Below, piece by piece: positions 747-46,136 of a DNA stretch of 64,000 bases (position 1 is its first letter; each line of letters starts with the position of its first letter). The DNA lies in the NCBI GenBank assembly GCA_001770725.1, contig MERU01000004.1, positions 248,001 to 312,000 on the forward strand, in the 5' to 3' direction. Position numbers and translations under genes: made by a program. The notes below the pieces were generated by a model that made no database searches, was not told where the DNA came from, and was given only the letters and a program-made list of their open reading frames with translations. The stretch is from Burkholderiales bacterium RIFCSPHIGHO2_01_FULL_63_240 (GTDB lineage Bacteria > Pseudomonadota > Gammaproteobacteria > Burkholderiales > Burkholderiaceae_C).

Positions 747-1103
747 ATGCGTCGCTGGATCGCCATTTTCTTGCTGTGTTGGTTGCCTTTGCAGTCCCTC
801 TGGGCGGCAGCGGCACCCTATTGCCAGCACGAACATTCGCCCCAGACAACGCATCTGGGGCACCACCAGCATGAGCACAGCGAACTGAGTGGTGGTGACT
901 TCCCGTCACCCGATGGCCAAACATCCAACGCCGACCACGCCGACTGCCATGCTTGCCATGGTCACTGCGCAGCGTTGCCCCAATTCACGAGCCGCAACCA
1001 GATTGGCACGCCCAATCGAGGCCTGATGCGCACTGAAGACGCCAGGGTGCCCGCTGCGCCCGTGGCCTTGCCCGACCGCCCCAACTGGTCAAACCTCGCC
1101 TGA
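747..1103 (+). CDS. czcI: CzcI-like His-rich periplasmic protein (copy 1)
   Basis: MRRWIAIFLLCWLPLQSLWAAAAPYCQHEH... signal peptide + YCQHE + His-rich + HADCHACHGHC; upstream of czcC. Confidence 0.75.
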   Translation: MRRWIAIFLLCWLPLQSLWAAAAPYCQHEHSPQTTHLGHHQHEHSELSGGDFPSPDGQTSNADHADCHACHGHCAALPQFTSRNQIGTPNRGLMRTEDARVPAAPVALPDRPNWSNLA

Positions 1104-1113
1104 GCGGCGAGGT
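1093..1113 (+). promoter_or_regulatory. Hairpin straddling czcI stop codon
   Basis: ACCTCGCC-TGAGC-GGCGAGGT, perfect 8-bp stem; stop TGA (1101-1103) in loop. Confidence 0.6.
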
Positions 1114-1270
1114 GCTGCCCGGGGTTCGCGCCCCACATTCAGCCTGTCTTATCGCGTGTGATTGACGCATCGGTGCCATGCCATTTGTGCGGCCCTTTTC
1201 GCCTTCAACGCCGCGACCCTGACCCTCGCCGATTCCTTCCACCTGTGGATTTTTCCCGGAGAAGAATCGG

Positions 1271-7943: not shown

Positions 7944-8315
7944 TCAGTCCAGCATCTTTCTTTGATCGACCCGTTTCAAAGGCTGCTGGCAATCGGTGAT
8001 GTTGACATACACCCAATCCCCAACGTTCAGATTCATGGCATTCGGAACGGCGACGACACGTTTAGCCCTCAGATTCGGACTGCCTCCGTAGCTGTAGGAC
8101 GCAACGGCGTAGCGGGCATAGGGTGCATCGGCACCCAACTCTGTTCGGCAGTCTTTGGCGACTCGCTGCATCATGGTTTTGGCTTGACCAATTTCCATGA
8201 TTTGTGATCGGCGCCATCCTTCCCGGTACCCATAGGGCTCGTAGTCAAGCGTAGAGCACGCGGTTGTCAGCAATGAAATACCTGTGAGCACACAGGTCAG
8301 AGTGAATTTGTTCAT
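7944..8315 (-). CDS. Small lipoprotein (paralog of 45768-46136)
   Basis: MNKFTLTCVLTGISLLTTACSTLDYEPYGYREGWRRSQIMEIG...; lipobox TTAC. Confidence 0.7.
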   Translation of the reverse strand: MNKFTLTCVLTGISLLTTACSTLDYEPYGYREGWRRSQIMEIGQAKTMMQRVAKDCRTELGADAPYARYAVASYSYGGSPNLRAKRVVAVPNAMNLNVGDWVYVNITDCQQPLKRVDQRKMLD

Positions 8316-8429
8316 GATCGGCTCCTGATGAAACACACAACGGGGTGGGTTCGACGAGCCGGAAGCTGAAAGATCTACGCCTGCTGGCGTGTCATCTCAA
8401 TGACAATTCATCAGAACGGCCCCGTCGAA

Positions 8430-8783
8430 TCAGAGGGAGTCGATCCAGTTGGGGCGCTCGATCCGAGGCGGATCGGATGTTGGATGAAGGTGGGTTTCCA
8501 AGGACGAACTGCTGCTCAGTCGTTGAGCTTGACCAAACACAAGACCCACGGGAAGCAGATGGGCGCTGCACAGGTGACCAGAGCAGCCACAATCGTTCTC
8601 AGCCTTTTGGGTGATTTTGGTCGGGTGCTTGCCTGTATCCGCGCGGTCTTGGTGTGAATGCACGTGGTGACCAAAATGCTGGGCACCGGGATCTTGCTCA
8701 TCTTGACAGTACGTGGCCGCCACAGCCCAACTCAATTGGAGTGGCAGCACGATCATCAAAAGAATGGCAATCAACCGGCGCAT
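8430..8783 (-). CDS. czcI: CzcI-like His-rich protein (copy 2)
   Basis: MRRLIAILLMIVLPLQLSWAVAATYCQDEQ...HFGHHVHSHQD...RIERPNWIDSL. Confidence 0.75.
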   Translation of the reverse strand: MRRLIAILLMIVLPLQLSWAVAATYCQDEQDPGAQHFGHHVHSHQDRADTGKHPTKITQKAENDCGCSGHLCSAHLLPVGLVFGQAQRLSSSSSLETHLHPTSDPPRIERPNWIDSL

Positions 8784-33609: not shown

Positions 33610-34245
33610 TCAGGGAACCGTGCCTTCGCCACCAGTTTTAGTCGGTGACGGAACCGTACGATCCAGCGCGCGCAGAATCCGGCTTTCGTCGATCAGCGCA
33701 CGCCCTTCCTGCCGCGACAAGCGAACAAGGTCGAATCTCTTCCCATACCTTCCACGCCTGCGTACTTCCAGCACAACGACATCACCTGCTCGCAGTTCCA
33801 GGGGAATGGTCGCGTCCACCCCCTCCTGAATGCGAACTTCGTGAAGCCCCGGCGAAACGTCCACGGCAACGACCGAATAGGGGATGAGGCTTTCCAGCGG
33901 CTGCCCATTCAACCCCAAAGGCACCAGCCCTTGGATGTCGCCGTCCCGCGCTCGAACGATCACCACCCGCCCCGCATCCGGCCGCAATGCCAGGTTGCGC
34001 ACCTTGGCCGCGTCGGCGGACTTCGGCGATGGCCCCGGCACGCAAGTTCTCGTCTTGAGCATGGTGAAACATATGGGCTTCAGCCGCTTGGCCTCATCCC
34101 TCTCGGCGAGGGCACAGCCTTGCAACACCGCGGCGGACAGCCCCAGCAAGACCATGCCGGGCGCAGAGAACATCGCGCAAGGGAAGGCGCACGCGTTTCC
34201 CTCACCGGGCCAAAGCCGGGGCCACCGGCCCCATGCTTTGGTCAT
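33610..34245 (-). CDS. Hypothetical lipoprotein downstream of czcA
   Basis: LGLSAAVLQGC lipobox-like; PGLHEVRIQEGVDATIPLELRAGDVVVLEVRR. Confidence 0.55.
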   Translation of the reverse strand: MTKAWGRWPRLWPGEGNACAFPCAMFSAPGMVLLGLSAAVLQGCALAERDEAKRLKPICFTMLKTRTCVPGPSPKSADAAKVRNLALRPDAGRVVIVRARDGDIQGLVPLGLNGQPLESLIPYSVVAVDVSPGLHEVRIQEGVDATIPLELRAGDVVVLEVRRRGRYGKRFDLVRLSRQEGRALIDESRILRALDRTVPSPTKTGGEGTVP

Positions 34246-37200
34246 GCAATCGCTCCATCCTCGTGTGCGTCAGGAGAGGGCTTGGTTTCGGTGGTCTGGG
34301 CGTCCTCTTCATCCTTTCGATGGACGATGCGGTAAAGCACAGGGAGCACCAGCAAAGTCAGCATCGTCGAGGACAGGATGCCTCCGATCACGACGGTCGC
34401 CAGCGGCCTTTGAACCTCCGCGCCCGTGCCGGTGGCCAGGGCCATCGGTACGAAGCCCAGCGAAGCCACCAACGCGGTCATCAGGACCGGCCTCAGCCGC
34501 GTCAAGGCGCCCTCGTGGATGGCCTCGTCAAGCGACCGCCCTTCGTCACGCAAGTTGCGAATGAAGGAGATCATCACCAGCCCGTTCAGCACGGCCACCC
34601 CAGACAGTGCGATGAATCCGATGGCCGCCGAGATCGACAAGGGGATGTCCCGCAGCCACAGGGCCAGGATGCCCCCCGTCAGCGCGAACGGGATCCCGGT
34701 GAACACCAGCAAGCCGTCCTTCACGTTGCCGAACATGGCAAAGAGCAGCACGAAAACCAGCAGCAGCGAGACCGGCACGACGATCTGCAGGCGCTGCGTG
34801 GCGGACTGCAGGTTCTCGAACTGGCCGCCCCACACGGTCCAATAGCCCGTGGGGATCTTGACCGCTTCCAGCGCCTTCTGGGCATCCCCGACGAAGGTGC
34901 CGATGTCACGGCCACGCACGTTGGCGCTGATGACGATGCGGCGCTTGCCGTTCTCGCGGCTGACCTGGTTGGGACCAGGCGCCGAGTCGATGGAAGCCAC
35001 CTCGGACAGCGGAATGAAGCGCGCGCCCTCGCCGTCTCCGCCCTTCAAGGCGATGGGGAGGCGCCGAACGGCTTCCAGATCCGTGCGGACATCTTCCGGC
35101 AGACGCACGACGATGTCGAAACGGCGGTCGCCCTCGAACAGCGTCCCAGCCTCCTTGCCGCCCACGGCCGTGGCCAGCGTGTCCTGGATGTCGCCGATGT
35201 TCAGGCCATAGCGCGTCGCCTTCTCGCGGTCGATGTTGATGGTCAGCATGGGCAGGCCCGTGGTCTGTTCCACCTTCACCTCGGACGAGCCCGGGATGCC
35301 TTGCAGCACCTTCGCGATCTGGTTGGCCGTGTTGTTGAGGACATCCATGTCATCGCCGAACAGCTTGACCGCGACGTCACTGCGCACCCCGGAGATCAGC
35401 TCGTTGAAGCGCAGCTGGATCGGCTGAGAGAACTCGTAGTTCTGCCCCGGCAGTTTGGCGACCTCTTCCTGAACAGCGGCCAGCAGTTCGTCGCGCGTCT
35501 TGCGCGGCTCGGGCCATTTGTCCACCGGCTTGAGCATCACGTAACCGTCCGAGATGTTGGGCGGCATCGGGTCGGCCGCGATCTCGGCGGTACCGGTGCG
35601 TGCAAACACACGTTCGATCTCAGGGAACTTGGCCTTCAGATGGCTTTCCAGCTTGGTCTGCATGGCCACCGATTGGCTGAGGCTGGTGCCGGGAATCCGC
35701 AGCGCCTGCACCGCGAAATCGCCTTCGTTCAAGCTTGGCACGAACTCGCTGCCCATGCGGGAAGCCACCACGCCACAGACCAGGACGAGCACCGCTGCCG
35801 CCGTCAGCACGACAGGCTTGGCCCCCATCACCGTGTTCAGCATGGGCTCATACCAGCGCTTGGCGGTGCGGATCACCACGTTTTCGGTCTCCGACACCTT
35901 CTTGCCGATGAACAGCGCCACGGCAGCGGGGATGAAGGTGATGGACAGGATCATGGCACCCAACAACGCCGTCACCACGGTGAACGCCATCGGATGGAAC
36001 ATCTTGCCTTCCACACCGGCCAGGGCGAAGATGGGCAGGTAGACGATCATGATGATCAGCTGCCCGAACAGCAGCGGACGACGGGCCTCCTGCGAAGCCG
36101 CGAAGACTTCATGGAAACGCTCGCGCAAGGTCAACTCTCGCCCGTGATGCGCCTGCGCATGCGCCAGGCGGCGCACGCAGTTCTCCACGATCACCACCGC
36201 GCCATCGACGATGATCCCGAAGTCCAGCGCGCCCAGGCTCATCAGGTTGGCGCTGACCTTCTGACTGACCATACCGCTGAAGGTGAAGAGCATGGAAAGC
36301 GGGATCACCATGGCGGTGATCACCGCGGCACGCATGTTGCCCAGGAACAGGAAGAGGATGGCGATCACCAGGATGGCGCCTTCCATCAGGTTCTTCTTCA
36401 CCGTGGCGATCGCCTTGTCCACCAGGACGGTCCGGTCGTAGACGGTCACGGCATGAACACCAGCTGGCAGGGACTTGTTGATCTCCGCCATCTTGATGTC
36501 AACTGCTTGCGAGACCTTGCGGCTGTTCTCGCCAATGAGCATGAACACGGTGCCCAGGACGACCTCTCGGCCGTTGTCGGTGGCGGCGCCCGTGCGCAAC
36601 TCCTTGCCCTGCCCCACTTCTGCGATGTCGCGGATGCGGATGGGCACATCCGTCGTCTGCTTGACGATGATGCTGCCCAGGTCCTGGGTGCCACGCACCT
36701 GACCAGGTGCACGGATCAGGTACTGCTCGCCTTCGCGTTCGATGTAGCCGGCGCCAACGTTGCCGTTGTTGCGCTCCAGGGCATTGACCACGTCACCCAA
36801 CGTCAGGCCATGCGCCATGAGCTTCTCAGGGCTGGGCGCGACCTGGTATTCCTTGGCATAGCCGCCGATGGAATTGATCTCGGTCACGCCCGTCACATTG
36901 CGCAGTTGAGGCTTGATGATCCAATCCTGGATTTCGCGCAGGTCAGTCGGCGTGTAGGGCGTGCCATCCGGCTTCTTGGCGCCGTCCTTGGCTTCGACAG
37001 TCCACATGTAGATCTCGCCCAGGCCTGTGGAAATGGGGCCCATGGCCGGCGTGACGCCTTCCGGCAGCCGCGCCTTGGCCTCCTGGATCCGCTCGTTCAC
37101 CAACTGGCGCGCGAAATACAGGTCGGTGCCGTCCTTGAAGATCACGGTGATCTGGGACAGGCCGTAGCGCGACAGGGAGCGAGTCTGCTCCAGGCCGGGC

Positions 37201-37427
37201 AGGCCAGCCATCACGGTCTCCAGCGGGTAGGTCACGCGCTGCTCGGTTTCCAGCGGCGAATAGCCGGGTGTCTGGGTGTTGATCTGGACCTGGACGTTGG
37301 TGATGTCCGGCACGGCATCGATGGGCAGCTTCTGATAGCTGAAGACGCCCAGGGCGGCCATGCCGAAGACGGCCAGCAGCACAAGCCAGCGCTGCTCAAT
37401 GGCAAATCGGATGATGCGTTCAAACAT
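34242..37427 (-). CDS. czcA: Heavy-metal RND transporter CzcA (copy 2)
   Basis: 1061 aa; KLPIDAVPDITNVQVQINTQTPGYSPLETEQRVTYPLETVMAGLPG; SLGALDFGIIVDGAVVIVEN. Confidence 0.95.
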   Translation of the reverse strand: MFERIIRFAIEQRWLVLLAVFGMAALGVFSYQKLPIDAVPDITNVQVQINTQTPGYSPLETEQRVTYPLETVMAGLPGLEQTRSLSRYGLSQITVIFKDGTDLYFARQLVNERIQEAKARLPEGVTPAMGPISTGLGEIYMWTVEAKDGAKKPDGTPYTPTDLREIQDWIIKPQLRNVTGVTEINSIGGYAKEYQVAPSPEKLMAHGLTLGDVVNALERNNGNVGAGYIEREGEQYLIRAPGQVRGTQDLGSIIVKQTTDVPIRIRDIAEVGQGKELRTGAATDNGREVVLGTVFMLIGENSRKVSQAVDIKMAEINKSLPAGVHAVTVYDRTVLVDKAIATVKKNLMEGAILVIAILFLFLGNMRAAVITAMVIPLSMLFTFSGMVSQKVSANLMSLGALDFGIIVDGAVVIVENCVRRLAHAQAHHGRELTLRERFHEVFAASQEARRPLLFGQLIIMIVYLPIFALAGVEGKMFHPMAFTVVTALLGAMILSITFIPAAVALFIGKKVSETENVVIRTAKRWYEPMLNTVMGAKPVVLTAAAVLVLVCGVVASRMGSEFVPSLNEGDFAVQALRIPGTSLSQSVAMQTKLESHLKAKFPEIERVFARTGTAEIAADPMPPNISDGYVMLKPVDKWPEPRKTRDELLAAVQEEVAKLPGQNYEFSQPIQLRFNELISGVRSDVAVKLFGDDMDVLNNTANQIAKVLQGIPGSSEVKVEQTTGLPMLTINIDREKATRYGLNIGDIQDTLATAVGGKEAGTLFEGDRRFDIVVRLPEDVRTDLEAVRRLPIALKGGDGEGARFIPLSEVASIDSAPGPNQVSRENGKRRIVISANVRGRDIGTFVGDAQKALEAVKIPTGYWTVWGGQFENLQSATQRLQIVVPVSLLLVFVLLFAMFGNVKDGLLVFTGIPFALTGGILALWLRDIPLSISAAIGFIALSGVAVLNGLVMISFIRNLRDEGRSLDEAIHEGALTRLRPVLMTALVASLGFVPMALATGTGAEVQRPLATVVIGGILSSTMLTLLVLPVLYRIVHRKDEEDAQTTETKPSPDAHEDGAIA

Positions 37428-37445: not shown

Positions 37446-38858
37446 TCAATGCTCGTGCTCGGCCGAAGCCTTGCCGATTTCAGCTTTGATGACGAAGCTG
37501 TTCGTCGCCGCATAGCGGGTACCGGCGCTCAAGCCCTTGACGACTTCCGTGCGCTTGCCATCGGTGTGACCGACCTCCACAGGCTTGGCCTGGAATCCGC
37601 CCGGGACTTCGACGAACACGACTTGGCGGCCTTCCATGGTCTGCACCGCGCCAGCCGTCACGGTCACGGGTGCTTCCGTCTCGCCGGAAGTCACGGCGAC
37701 ATTGACGAACAGGCCGGGACGCCACGACAGGTCTGGATTGGTCAGCACCACTCGGGCGGTTGCTGTGCGCGTCTGCTCGCCAATCAGCGATCCAACGTAG
37801 GTCACGGTGCCCTTGGCCGTGGCTTCGAACGAACTGGATCGCACGGTAACCTTCTCGCCCACCTTCACGAGGTTCAGGTCCTTGGCGGGCACGTTGATTG
37901 TGGCCCACACGGTGGACAGGTCGGACAGGGTGAACACATTGGCGTCTTCCTTGACCGACTCGCCCAGAGCGATGTGCTTCTCGACCACGACCGCATCAAA
38001 CGGTGCGCGCAGCTCGTAGCGATTCAATGCCCCAGCCGAAGGCGAGGCACCCAACGCCTTGAGCTTCTGGTTGGCGTTGTTGACCGCAATCTCGGCTTCG
38101 CGCAGGGCCTGGGTGGCCTGCAGAAGATCCATCTGCGGCGAGATCTTGTCTTCGAAGAGCTTCTTCTCTCGGTCGTAGGTGGTTTGCGCCAAGGTCAGGC
38201 GCTTCTGGGCCGCCTGCAACTCGCTGCGCTGTTCGGACAGCAACACGCTGGAAATGACCGCGAGGACCTGGCCCTTCTTGACCTGCTGCCCCAGGTTGGC
38301 CGACACCGATTCGACAACGCCACCGACACGGGGCACAACGTGTGCCGTGCGATCCTCGTTGAACTTGATTTCGCCGGACAGCTGCACCGTCGAAAGGATC
38401 TTGCCAGGTTGGGCCGCTTGGACTTCAACGCCCGCTGCTGCGATCTGCTGAGCATTCAGAGAGACAGGCTCTTCCTCGCCTTCCTCGTGCTTGCCAGCGT
38501 TGGCGGCGGCAGCGCCCTTTTCAGAAGCGGTTTCGCCTTCATGCTTGTCATGCGCCCCATGCTCCTCGGCCTTCTCATGATGTTCCTTGTCATCGTGTCC
38601 CTTGGCTTCGTCGTGGCCGGACTCGGACTTCTTCTCGCCGTGGTGCTCGGCGTCATCGTGTCCCTTGGCCTCGCCGTGACCGTGGCCATGGCTCTCCTCG
38701 GCCGCTTCGCCGGCAGGCGCGCTGGCAGACCGCGTCAGCACAAATGCGCTGGCGCCCAACCCCGCCAAAACGATGGCGATGATGGCAACGAGTTGCTTTT
38801 GGCTGATGCGCCCAGCCTGGCGTTGTGATTGGGAGCGTGTCATGCGATGCTTTCTCAT
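37446..38858 (-). CDS. czcB: RND adaptor CzcB (copy 2) with long His/Glu/Asp-rich linker
   Basis: N-terminal TM, EESHGHGHGEAKGHDDAEHHGEKKSESGHDEAKGHDDKEHHEK..., then HlyD-like domains. Confidence 0.92.
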   Translation of the reverse strand: MRKHRMTRSQSQRQAGRISQKQLVAIIAIVLAGLGASAFVLTRSASAPAGEAAEESHGHGHGEAKGHDDAEHHGEKKSESGHDEAKGHDDKEHHEKAEEHGAHDKHEGETASEKGAAAANAGKHEEGEEEPVSLNAQQIAAAGVEVQAAQPGKILSTVQLSGEIKFNEDRTAHVVPRVGGVVESVSANLGQQVKKGQVLAVISSVLLSEQRSELQAAQKRLTLAQTTYDREKKLFEDKISPQMDLLQATQALREAEIAVNNANQKLKALGASPSAGALNRYELRAPFDAVVVEKHIALGESVKEDANVFTLSDLSTVWATINVPAKDLNLVKVGEKVTVRSSSFEATAKGTVTYVGSLIGEQTRTATARVVLTNPDLSWRPGLFVNVAVTSGETEAPVTVTAGAVQTMEGRQVVFVEVPGGFQAKPVEVGHTDGKRTEVVKGLSAGTRYAATNSFVIKAEIGKASAEHEH

Positions 38859-40153
38859 GGCTTGGACGTCGTCTGTTCTTCGCCGCTGGTCCCCAGCAGG
38901 CGATCGATGTTGGCGTTGGTGCGGTACAGCTCATTGAGCGCACGCAGGTACTGGGCGCGGGCCTGGAGCAAGGTCCGTTGGGCATCCAGGGCGTCGAGGA
39001 AGCTGAACTTGCCCAGCTCGAAGCCGGTCGTGGCGGCCTGCCACGCGCTCTCGGCGCCCGGCAGTACCTCGCTGCGCAGGACGTCCACCTCAGCCTGGGC
39101 GAAGCGCTGACGCTCCGTCAATTGCACCCACTCGGTCTCGACGCGGATCCGCGTTGCCTGGAAGTCCGCTTCGGCCTTATCGTGCAGGCGCAAGGCCTGA
39201 AGCAGGTTCCCCCGGTTGGTATCGAGCACAGGGATGGGAATGGCCAGGCCGATCACAGCCTGATTGCGTCCGACCTGCTGATCCCGCTTGGCACCCAAGG
39301 TCAGGGTCACGTCCGGAACACGGCGCGCCTCCTCAAGCTCGACCATGGCTTGCCGCTTGTCGACCTCCAGGCGTGCCTGCCGCAGCACCGGCACATCTGA
39401 CAACTGAGAAGCCTCCAGATTGCGAGAGGCTGGCTGGACACCCGATTGCCAAACCAGTGTCTGAGCACGAACGGCAGATGCTGGGCCCAGCAGAGCTGCC
39501 AGCCCTTGGCGAGCGGATCGGAGTTCGCTCTGCGCTTGAAGCAGTTCCAGTCGGACACCAGCGTGAGCAACCTTCGCCCTGGTCTCGTCCATTGCAGAGA
39601 CCTTGCCGGCCTGGACTCGCTTGGAGACCGCATCCGTGCCTCGCATGGACAAGTCGACGGAGGCCTGCGCCAGCTTCACCCGTTCCTGAGCGATGGCGGC
39701 AGCAAAGAATGCATCGGCCACATCCGCTCTGATCTGCGCGCGACGCCCTTCGATGTCCACGGCGGTTTGAGCCCGCGCGGCCTCGGCGACCGAGATCCGC
39801 GCTGACCGTTTACCGCCCAGCTCGATGGGCAGGCTCAACTGCACCGTGGTCGTCCGGCTGTCTCGCCGCGTATCTTCCAGCAGTGCCTGGACTTCAGGAT
39901 TGGGACGTGCACCCGCTTGAATGACGGCCCCTTCGCTGGCTGCCAGTTCCTGCTGGTTGGCCACGATTTGAGGACTGAACTGAAGCGCCAGCCTGATGGC
40001 CTCGCTCAGCGTCAAGGGCTGCGCCACGGGCACCGCCTTGTGCACGGCTTGCCCATCCGAATTGGACGGGCTAACTTGAGCAAAGGTGGCGGAAGAAAAA
40101 AGTGTGGCCGTGACCAACGCGAACGTCGTCATCGGCACCATGTGCCTGTACAT
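38855..40153 (-). CDS. czcC: Outer-membrane efflux protein CzcC (copy 2)
   Basis: 432 aa OEP: LTLSEAIRLALQFSPQIVANQQELAASEGAVIQAGARPNPEVQALLEDTRR; overlaps czcB start. Confidence 0.9.
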   Translation of the reverse strand: MYRHMVPMTTFALVTATLFSSATFAQVSPSNSDGQAVHKAVPVAQPLTLSEAIRLALQFSPQIVANQQELAASEGAVIQAGARPNPEVQALLEDTRRDSRTTTVQLSLPIELGGKRSARISVAEAARAQTAVDIEGRRAQIRADVADAFFAAAIAQERVKLAQASVDLSMRGTDAVSKRVQAGKVSAMDETRAKVAHAGVRLELLQAQSELRSARQGLAALLGPASAVRAQTLVWQSGVQPASRNLEASQLSDVPVLRQARLEVDKRQAMVELEEARRVPDVTLTLGAKRDQQVGRNQAVIGLAIPIPVLDTNRGNLLQALRLHDKAEADFQATRIRVETEWVQLTERQRFAQAEVDVLRSEVLPGAESAWQAATTGFELGKFSFLDALDAQRTLLQARAQYLRALNELYRTNANIDRLLGTSGEEQTTSKP

Positions 40154-40251
40154 CGAATTCTCCGGGTTGTGGGAACAACAACAAGAAGGAATCCGGCGAG
40201 AGAGGCCGTGGCCTCGCTATCTGAAGACAGGAAAAAAGCTTGCGCAGCAGC

Positions 40252-40278
40252 CGTCTCGCCGAATCAAACGGCGAGACG
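40252..40278 (-). promoter_or_regulatory. Hairpin straddling czcI stop codon
   Basis: Minus strand CGTCTCGCCG-TTTGATT-CGGCGAGACG, perfect 10-bp stem with stop TGA in loop. Confidence 0.7.
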
Positions 40279-40641
40279 TATGTCGGGACGCTCGGGTCCC
40301 GCTGGAATGTTGGAGGCGTAGCCCTCGATCGAGTGGCCAAACCATTCCCTGCTGGACGCCACCTGAGGGGTGTGCGTCTCACTGACCGGCGAGGCAGCGC
40401 TCATGTGGCAGACAGTGCAGTCGTTGTCGGCACTGGCCTTCTTGTCGCTACCGCTCTTGTCCTTTGCGGCTTTATCGCCAGGGCGCTCCCCACGTTGCGG
40501 ATCAAGATGGTTGTGCTCGTGGTGCCCGAAATGGCGCTGCGCGGCAGGGTTGCTTTCATGCTGACAATAGCTGGCCACCGCAGCCCAGGACATCTGGAGC
40601 GGAAACCAAATCAGCAGGAACAAGCAAAGCAATCGACGCAT
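40264..40641 (-). CDS. czcI: CzcI-like protein (copy 3)
   Basis: MRRLLCLFLLIWFPLQMSWAAVASYCQHESN...HFGHHEHNH...NDCTVCHMS; directly upstream of czcCBA. Confidence 0.85.
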   Translation of the reverse strand: MRRLLCLFLLIWFPLQMSWAAVASYCQHESNPAAQRHFGHHEHNHLDPQRGERPGDKAAKDKSGSDKKASADNDCTVCHMSAASPVSETHTPQVASSREWFGHSIEGYASNIPAGPERPDIRLAV

Positions 40642-43049: not shown

Positions 43050-43406
43050 ATGCGCCGCCTGATTGCCATTTTCTTGTTGTTGATTGTGCCGCTGCAGCTT
43101 GGATATGCTGCGGCCGCGGCCTATTGCCAGCACGAGACTGGCAGTGCGGCCGGGCATTTCGGGCACCATGCGCATGAACACAGGGCGCAGGTAGGAGCCG
43201 ATCAAGACAATGGCAAAGGCAAGTTGTCATTGCAGCTTGACCAGGATTGCGGCCTCTGCCATCTCCAGATGCCCCAGCTGCTGCCCCAGCACACCACGGT
43301 GACACCGACCTCCGTCGAGACTTCCCTCTACCGTGCACCGGTGATTGCGTATTCCTCGGCCGATCGCCGCCGTCTCGAACGCCCCAATTGGACATCCTCG
43401 CTGTAA
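43050..43406 (+). CDS. czcI: CzcI-like protein (copy 4)
   Basis: MRRLIAIFLLLIVPLQLGYAAAAAYCQHETG...HFGHHAHEHR...CGLCHLQ...RLERPNWTSSL. Confidence 0.78.
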   Translation: MRRLIAIFLLLIVPLQLGYAAAAAYCQHETGSAAGHFGHHAHEHRAQVGADQDNGKGKLSLQLDQDCGLCHLQMPQLLPQHTTVTPTSVETSLYRAPVIAYSSADRRRLERPNWTSSL

Positions 43407-43415
43407 ATCGGCGAG
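43397..43415 (+). promoter_or_regulatory. Hairpin straddling czcI stop codon
   Basis: CTCGCTG-TAAAT-CGGCGAG, 7-bp stem with one G-U pair; stop TAA in loop. Confidence 0.5.
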
Positions 43416-43654
43416 CAGTTCGTCCATTCCTGGCTTCCATACGCTTCGAATGAATCCGTCATGAACTGACGGCTTCTGCTCGTCGAATTCCTCCCATCAC
43501 GCTTGGAGAATTCGATGCGAAGTTCATTGGCCGTGCCCATGTTTTGCCATGGCAGACGCGGTAGTGCCCACCTGCCCTTGATTGCATCCATCCAGACAAC
43601 GCCCGTAGCCACCGGAGCGCAGCGGCCAGTCCTGCGCGCGCAAGGGGCCCTTAC

Positions 43655-43939
43655 ATGACCACGCCCTTCACCCACAAGGAGTTGGGCCTGGTGTGGTTGG
43701 CTTTGGGACTGTGTGGGGTGCTTGCACTGCTTCTGTTTGCCTGGTGGCTGGCGCATCACCCTCCCAAGGTGACACCAACCTCACAGCCCAAGTACACCGA
43801 TGCTCTCCGGCATCGACTGAACGGCAAACGATTTTCGGAACGGCAAGCGCCACCGAATTCGACCGGCACGGCATCGGGTACTCATGGTCAGCCGCCCGCT
43901 GGAAAACAAGACGGCAAAGCCAAAGGAAGAAGGCCATGA
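43655..43939 (+). CDS. Small single-TM hypothetical protein
   Basis: 94 aa, one strong TM segment LGLVWLALGLCGVLALLLFAWWLA. Confidence 0.45.
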   Translation: MTTPFTHKELGLVWLALGLCGVLALLLFAWWLAHHPPKVTPTSQPKYTDALRHRLNGKRFSERQAPPNSTGTASGTHGQPPAGKQDGKAKGRRP

Positions 43940-45166: not shown

Positions 45167-45523
45167 ATGCGCCGCTGGCTGATCTTGTTCCTGGTGTTTG
45201 TCCTTCCGCTCCAACTCAGTTGGGCGGCGGCTGGCATCGCCTGTGCGCATGAGACCGGCCCTGCCGCCGACCACTTCGGGCATCACGTGCATCAGCACCA
45301 GGACAGTGGCAAATCGGTGGAGCACGGAAAGTCAGTTGCCGACAAAGGCCAGGCCGATACAGATTGCCCATACTGCCATGTGAGCGTTCCAACGCCCGTC
45401 GTGGAGTTCCATTTCTTTGATGCTCCGCTGACCAGCTCGACCGCCTTGCCCGAACCGCTGTCCTGGCGGGCATGGGTATTCGAAGAGGCGCCCGAGAAGC
45501 CCAACTGGCGTATGCCCAGTTGA
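45167..45523 (+). CDS. czcI: CzcI-like protein (copy 5)
   Basis: MRRWLILFLVFVLPLQLSWAAAGIACAHETG...HFGHHVHQHQD...DCPYCHVS...EKPNWRMPS. Confidence 0.78.
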   Translation: MRRWLILFLVFVLPLQLSWAAAGIACAHETGPAADHFGHHVHQHQDSGKSVEHGKSVADKGQADTDCPYCHVSVPTPVVEFHFFDAPLTSSTALPEPLSWRAWVFEEAPEKPNWRMPS

Positions 45524-45767
45524 TCCAGCTGAGCGCTCTTCCCCGCTGAAACCAACAGCCTCAAGCTTCCCGCGCCGCTGGATCCACCAGTTCTGACTTT
45601 GTTCAACTGGAGGACTCGATGCGCCATGTGCCATCACCCACTGATTGCCCTGCCTTGTCGGCCACCCTCCGGGACTGCTCGGAGGACTACTGCCGCGCTC
45701 GAAACGCTTCTCATGCGCCGCAGGCAATCCTGGTCCTCCGTAGATCCCTCTATCTGGAGTACCTCTC

Positions 45768-46136
45768 ATGATCAAGTCACTGACTTGGGTATCACTGCTT
45801 CTGGCCCTGCTGGCGTCTGGATGCGCCAGCATGGACACCGACACTTACGGCCGCAAGGAAGGCTGGCGCAGGGCCCGTGTGGTCGAAGTGGGCGGCATTG
45901 AATCGCCCATGAAGACCCTGCAGACGGACTGCCGTTCGGAACTGGGTCCTAACCCGCCCTACACCCGGTTTGCCGTTGTTTCCTACAACGTGCGCGGTAG
46001 TCCAAGGAACAAGGCCCGGCGAATCTCGGCCATTCCCAATGATTTGGACCTCCAGGCCGACGACCTCGTCTTCGTCAACATTCAAAACTGCTTTGCGCCG
46101 TTGCGCAAGCGGGATGCGTTGGGTAACACCCCATGA
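45768..46136 (+). CDS. Small lipoprotein (paralog of 7944-8315)
   Basis: ASGCASMDTDTYGRKEGWRRARVVEVG...DCRSELGPNPPYTRFAVVSYNVRGSPRNKARRISAIPND. Confidence 0.75.
   Translation: MIKSLTWVSLLLALLASGCASMDTDTYGRKEGWRRARVVEVGGIESPMKTLQTDCRSELGPNPPYTRFAVVSYNVRGSPRNKARRISAIPNDLDLQADDLVFVNIQNCFAPLRKRDALGNTP

Follow-up and report, generated by a model that had tools for sequence, protein, structure and literature searches.

The czc genes encode the textbook bacterial zinc/cobalt/cadmium efflux system, and the locus analyzed here raises the question of what a hairpin formed around the stop codon of czcI does to the translation of czcC, the next gene. An earlier note had described a perfect 10-bp hairpin with the czcI stop codon in its loop, and the structure was recovered to the letter on the coding (minus) strand, CGTCTCGCCG-TTTGATT-CGGCGAGACG (40278..40252), with the TGA of a 125-aa czcI (40641..40264) in the 7-nt loop. 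Across the window (the whole 64-kb stretch of DNA that was analyzed), a search for perfect 10-bp stems with loops of 3–10 nt gave 11 overlapping matches at 5 sites, while 40 dinucleotide shuffles of the window gave an average of 0.8 and a maximum of 3; the hairpin at 40252-40278 is thus real and beyond chance. Among 214 mechanically called ORFs of at least 100 aa, this czcI had the longest perfect stem spanning a stop codon (10 bp), and the runner-up (8 bp, ACCTCGCC/GGCGAGGT) was another czcI, at 747-1103. A stem of 7 bp including one G-U pair, CTCGCTG/CGGCGAG, was found at the czcI of 43050-43406. The similar stems ascribed earlier to two other czcI genes are therefore present at 747-1103 and 43050-43406, but the copies in the window number five rather than three: 747 (+), 8783 (−), 40641 (−), 43050 (+), and 45167 (+). 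At 8783-8430 and 45167-45523, the arms differ in sequence from the CTCGCC/GGCGAG type.

Two further segments near the czcC start, overlooked in the earlier note, complete the arrangement; they are designated arm3 (40188-40204) and arm4 (40154-40169), and the two sides of the stop-codon hairpin arm1 and arm2. The features of the locus and of the other copies were as follows:

40264..40641, minus strand: czcI (40641 copy), ORF and translation; NCBIfam NF045614 CzcI, 105.8 bits with a cut-off of 100.
40269..40278, minus strand: arm1, the final czcI codons, CGTCTCGCCG, in the copy with which the analysis began.
40251..40263, minus strand: arm2, directly past the czcI stop, TTCGGCGAGACGG; partner of arm1 (helix P1) or of arm3 (helix P2).
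40188..40204, minus strand: arm3, CTCTCTCGCCGGATTCC; 5' part pairs with arm2 (P2), 3' part with arm4 (helix P3).
40154..40169, minus strand: arm4, CAACCCGGAGAATTCG, from the ribosome-binding site to the czcC ATG (40153).
38855..40153, minus strand: czcC, outer-membrane factor, the presumed regulated gene; Pfam OEP.
37446-38858, minus strand: czcB, after czcC; HlyD.
34242-37427, minus strand: czcA, after czcB; NCBIfam CzcA/CusA.
747..1103, plus strand: czcI copy 1.
1093..1270, plus strand: switch of copy 1, arm1 1093-1100, arm2 1104-1114, arm3 1223-1236, arm4 1255-1270; czcC ATG at 1271.
43393..43514, plus strand: switch of the czcI of 43050, arm1 43393-43403, arm2 43407-43418, arm3 43476-43494, arm4 43502-43514; the putative target is a 47-aa ORF.
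8316..8442, minus strand: switch of the czcI of 8783, arm1 8442-8433, arm2 8429-8417, arm3 8362-8348, arm4 8327-8316; the putative target is a lipoprotein gene, ATG at 8315.
45514..45618, plus strand: diverged switch of the czcI of 45167, arm1 45514-45520, arm2 45524-45535, arm3 45571-45585, arm4 45607-45618; the putative target is a 50-aa ORF.

All four arms were found at each of the five czcI copies of the window. Arm3 always lies shortly before the next gene; it repeats the arm1 sequence and complements arm2, while its 3' part is complementary to the segment from the ribosome-binding site through the ATG. Since arm3 is shared by arm2 and arm4, P1 (arm1:arm2) and P3 (arm3:arm4) are compatible with each other, and P2 (arm2:arm3) excludes both. 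By itself, the stop-codon hairpin does not cover the czcC ribosome-binding site; what it decides is which of the two later helices forms.

A sixth czcI copy, located elsewhere in the genome, also has the switch, with a different covarying P3 (CGATGC/GCATCG before the ATG); it had escaped the automatic start finder. Behind two of the switches in the window, short ORFs of 47 and 50 aa (43515-43658 and 45619-45771, plus strand) stand in place of czcC, and both terminate in an ATGA overlapping the next ORF (43655-43939 and the lipoprotein gene 45768-46136, respectively); these overlaps suggest either a relay via translational coupling or a czcC remnant. Two related small lipoproteins are encoded behind czcI-type switches, at 8315-7944 (minus strand, MNKFTLTC..) and 45768-46136 (plus strand, MIKSLTWV..). 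They matched no Pfam family at E-values up to 0.001 and may be previously unrecognized participants in the metal response.

To follow the arrangement beyond this genome, czcI loci were gathered from 77 GTDB contigs, 700 whole genomes of the family and order, and 100 further stretches, and were reduced to 96 non-redundant junctions, 86 of which had a usable next start. Arm3 was present in the expected fixed zone in 73 of these 86 betaproteobacterial junctions and missing from it in 13. The consensus was CTCGCC-stop-T-CGGCGAG ... CTCGCCGATTC ... GGAGAATCGG-ATG, with a distance from arm3 to the ATG of mostly 27–39 nt and an arm2-arm3 spacer of 23–253 nt. The switch was also found on plasmid pMOL30 of Cupriavidus metallidurans CH34: CGTCTCGCT[TGA]TCGGCGAGACG ... 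CGTCTCTCGCCGAATTC ... GGTGCAATTCG-ATG. A tblastn search of plasmids with CzcI of the 40641 copy gave no match; the pMOL30 locus was retrieved with a Cupriavidus-like CzcI as the query. The widely conserved four-arm RNA switch is well supported, and we found no published description of it. At two loci from Comamonadaceae (L025 and L058), the gene past a CzcI-like ORF resembles lspA (signal peptidase II), as judged by eye; their stop-codon hairpins are CCCTGATC-TGA-CCAGGG and CCCCGGTA-TGA-CCGGGG, respectively, and no arm3 was seen at either.

Covariation at czcI 3' ends, on which the earlier note had made its idea depend, was then assessed, and P1, P2, and P3 all covary, distant arms included. 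Pairing of a locus's own arms was stronger than pairing of arms swapped between loci for P1 (−18.1 vs. −15.1 kcal, z −10.9), P2 (−21.9 vs. −19.1 kcal, z −10.1), and P3 (−14.8 vs. −12.9 kcal, z −7.7), kinship being ignored in all three z values; the partner segments of P2 and P3 overlap in 68 of the 86 junctions. A search-free test compared the 4 nt past the czcI stop with the 4 nt preceding the next ATG, roughly 100 nt apart, and found that they match (z 7.2); with each combination counted once, this arm2/arm4 test gave a z value of 3.3 (p 0.001). Compensatory changes were mapped on a quick tree of CzcI and CzcC proteins: 25 double changes on 17 branches for P1, 45 on 24 for P2, and 13 on 13 for P3, the last helix covering the SD/start of the next gene just as the stem-loop of CutF-type systems covers the next ribosome-binding site. 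Because one-base register shifts yield several changes together, a strict single-register count was also made and retained 4 changes on 3 branches, 11 on 9, and 5 on 5, respectively. Four of the nine P2 pairs (a3–a6) had at most one mapped loss. Control partners slid by 1–3 positions mostly showed far fewer double changes and many losses. The clearest case is a triple change at two loci (L196 and L224), from CTCGCC/GGCGAG/CTCGCC to CTTGCC/GGCAAG/CTTGCC. For P3 alone, the z value against shuffled partners was weak (median −1.0), so this helix is supported by the tree, the arm swaps, and the search-free comparison of arm2 with arm4. A DNA operator was rejected as a reading of the repeats because the spacers differ widely in length and changes on the two sides occur jointly.

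The czcI-czcC junction is probably a four-arm translational attenuator that works by ermC logic and is driven by a nascent, exported, metal-binding leader. When the end of czcI is free of ribosomes, arm1:arm2 and arm3:arm4 would form, so that arm4, which carries the czcC ribosome-binding site and start, would be closed. If a ribosome paused while R-P-x-W occupied its active center, arm1 would be covered but arm2 would remain free to capture arm3; arm4 would then be released and czcC translated. A ribosome completing czcI would cover arm2 also, and arm3 would re-close arm4. Exclusive pairing of 1:2 plus 3:4 against 2:3 was found here as in the ermC attenuators, where the former state is closed, the latter is open, and stalling of the ribosome over arm1 exposes the ribosome-binding site (PMC5118997 and general knowledge). 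The ermC leader is a short drug-stalled peptide, whereas CzcI is a full exported metal-binding protein of about 118 aa whose final codons form arm1; the czcI switch has no short antibiotic-stalled leader peptide and is ermC-like in its working without being a member of that class.

The effect of ribosome position was computed with an idealised ribosome, removing the covered mRNA stepwise and calculating how much free energy it takes to open the start of czcC; the energies are those of isolated RNA at 37 °C, ignoring co-transcriptional folding and ribosome unwinding. The opening cost was about 10 kcal with the ribosome upstream, 6.7 kcal with its leading edge at −3..0 from the stop, and 12.9 kcal when arm2 was covered; the terminating state (12.3–12.9 kcal) was the most closed one predicted. 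Shuffled controls were flat, near 8 kcal. The minimum lay inside −6..0 in 57 of the 73 native junctions and in 9 of 73 shuffled ones, and every one of the five czcI copies in the window showed the dip, which was modest in the 40641 copy (from 10.5 to 7.0 kcal). Chimeric junctions retained a dip (−1.8 vs. −3.1 relative to upstream, p 0.04), owing to the resemblance of consensus arms between loci; comparison against the terminating state gave a stronger difference (p 4e-7). RAPP-type DUF2946 junctions (n = 17) likewise become open close to the stop, without re-closing at it, so re-closing is peculiar to CzcI. With the leading edge assumed to lie 15 nt ahead of the P-site codon, an edge at −6..0 places codons −7 to −5 in the P-site. 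The R-P-x-W motif occupies codons −8 to −5 of CzcI, since four residues follow the W in 96 of 114 proteins; the location of the motif and the geometry of opening, independently derived, coincide.

These calculations bear on the mechanism first proposed for the hairpin, plain translational coupling, in which a terminating ribosome melts the stop hairpin and released or arriving ribosomes start czcC. Simple coupling is widespread, and the hairpin does span the stop codon in most czcI copies; however, the czcC start is outside it, far downstream beyond the variable arm2-arm3 spacer; the terminating state comes out of the prediction as the most closed rather than the open one; and neither arm3 nor the conserved place of RPxW is explained. 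We regard plain coupling as quite unlikely. From the original proposal, the link between czcI translation and czcC by an attenuator is supported, given that all three helices covary, while termination as the opening event gives way to a predicted hold 5–7 codons before the stop.

Transcript data from strain CH34 bring in another reading, in which the stop hairpin is a terminator, a point of Rho polarity, or the protective 3' end of a monocistronic czcI message, and arm3 and arm4 are secondary. A monocistronic czcI message is known in CH34, where czcI and czcCBA transcripts are proposed to part downstream of czcI via cleavage or termination (PMC9045368, PMC10127602), and a T6 run lies about 14 nt beyond the stem in the 40641 copy. 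Yet this run is too distant from the stem and not general, pairing of arm3 with arm4 over the ribosome-binding site and the mutual exclusion would be left unexplained, and polarity beyond a closed czcC would yield identical transcripts; we hold this reading to be very unlikely. An intrinsic terminator in particular was rejected because a conserved U run is lacking. Helices that exclude one another ahead of a metal-efflux gene could also belong to a ligand-binding riboswitch or other RNA-only sensor with the nascent protein uninvolved. A conserved unpaired core is absent, the arm2-arm3 spacer is variable (23–253 nt), Rfam scans at gathering and permissive thresholds gave no relevant family, and arm1 is part of the coding sequence, its distance from RPxW being fixed, all of which makes such a sensor extremely improbable.

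The attenuator reading directs attention to the leader protein. CzcI of the 40641 copy is an exported protein of 125 aa with HHxHxH and DCxxCH motifs and the C-terminus ERPDIRLAV, its motif thus being RPDI, not RPxW; CzcI leaders in general have about 112–137 aa and carry RPxW (ERPQW, ERPNW, etc.) near the C-terminus. The distance from CxxC to the RPxW proline is 41.1 ± 0.48 residues (range 40–43, n = 114) across an otherwise variable stretch, while the length from HHxH to CxxC varies (standard deviation 9.2). All five CzcI proteins of the window match DUF2946 (PF11162), one above the cut-off (28.8 vs. 23.7 bits) and the rest weakly, including the 40641 copy (E 0.0095, under the cut-off); another CzcI copy scored 23.9 bits. 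By these matches and the fixed spacing, CzcI groups with the DUF2946 copper leaders CruR and CutF. No RAPP or proline-rich arrest motif was found at the C-terminus of CzcI, which has RPxW instead; RAPP-type relatives have mostly 45–48 residues from CxxC to PP. We found no published report of stalling at RPxW. Leu-Ala forms the C-terminus of 49 of the 86 CzcI proteins, is encoded by the CTCGCC of arm1, and might double as a degradation tail. A DUF2946 match on contig C11 (G000 C11:20337-20696) has one in-frame TGA inside and is possibly a broken copy.

In Rhodobacter capsulatus, CutF opens a stem-loop covering the cutO ribosome-binding site; CzcI and CzcI2 of C. metallidurans were listed as CutF-like (cluster 20) with their mode left open, and CutF's C-terminal proline motif was noted to be absent from CzcI (PMC9973294). 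Both CutF and CzcI are exported DUF2946-type proteins with a Cys metal motif, encoded directly upstream of a metal-homeostasis gene, and in both systems an mRNA stem-loop masks the next ribosome-binding site and leader translation governs its opening, as predicted for czcI-czcC. CutF has a proline-rich end and a single stem-loop unfolded by the ribosome, whereas CzcI has RPxW and two mutually exclusive RNA folds, predicted to re-close once the ribosome reaches the stop. CruR, the leader of bfrG in Bordetella pertussis, is a DUF2946 protein with CxxC located 45 residues from its arrest motif RAPP (PMC9426467); arrest at this motif was toeprinted with its third residue in the P-site (PMC12992588). 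As in CzcI, the CxxC of CruR stands at a fixed distance from the C-terminal motif, which in CruR sits 3 residues before the end, and the nascent chain reads the metal, as is proposed for CzcI; CruR differs from CzcI in the RAPP motif, in acting through Rho-dependent termination, and in that copper switches the gene off. SecM, VemP, and MifM resemble CzcI in being exported leaders with a C-terminal motif, of arrest in their case, and in controlling the next gene via mRNA structure, but they report protein export, not metal, and their motifs are others (PMC10987492).

Regarding CzcI, we infer the pause at RPxW, its control by Zn/Co/Cd, and a metal-on sign for czcC: outside the membrane, the His-rich and CxxC region of nascent CzcI would bind the metal, in the way that CutF binds copper, and the pause would depend on this binding. 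The same switch and leader could act with the opposite sign, metal relieving the pause and turning the downstream gene off, or the pause could report CzcI export or folding. The former sign is used by CruR in Bordetella (PMC9426467) and would agree with the description of CzcI as a quencher of the CzcCBA pump (PMC10127602); export is what SecM, VemP, and MifM report (PMC9973294). Against the opposite sign, CzcCBA is an efflux pump needed at high metal concentrations, and CzcA and CzcB rise 9–10 fold in CH34 under metal challenge (PMC11647595), which fits a CutF-like "metal turns on" response; we therefore consider these variants unlikely. CzcI itself went undetected in the CH34 proteome, which missed other small Czc proteins too (PMC11647595). 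These proteome data and the parting of the CH34 transcripts are compatible with the attenuator but are no proof of it. Only tentatively do we propose that CzcI is chiefly a leader that senses Zn/Co/Cd outside the membrane while ribosome-bound and that a pause at RPxW, a new arrest motif, sets the four-arm switch of czcCBA. The periplasmic quencher function long ascribed to CzcI could coexist with the leader role.

If this proposal is true, the copper-sensing nascent leaders CruR and CutF would be extended to zinc-type metals, RPxW would be an additional arrest motif, and an ermC-like attenuator would be driven by an exported full-length protein. A czcI deletion made without regard to arm1 would free arm2:arm3 and raise czcC translation, so the loss of arm1 could explain part of the quencher phenotype of czcI deletions. 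The switch is conserved in the model plasmid pMOL30, which makes the role of CzcI and the separation of the czcI and czcCBA messages directly testable.
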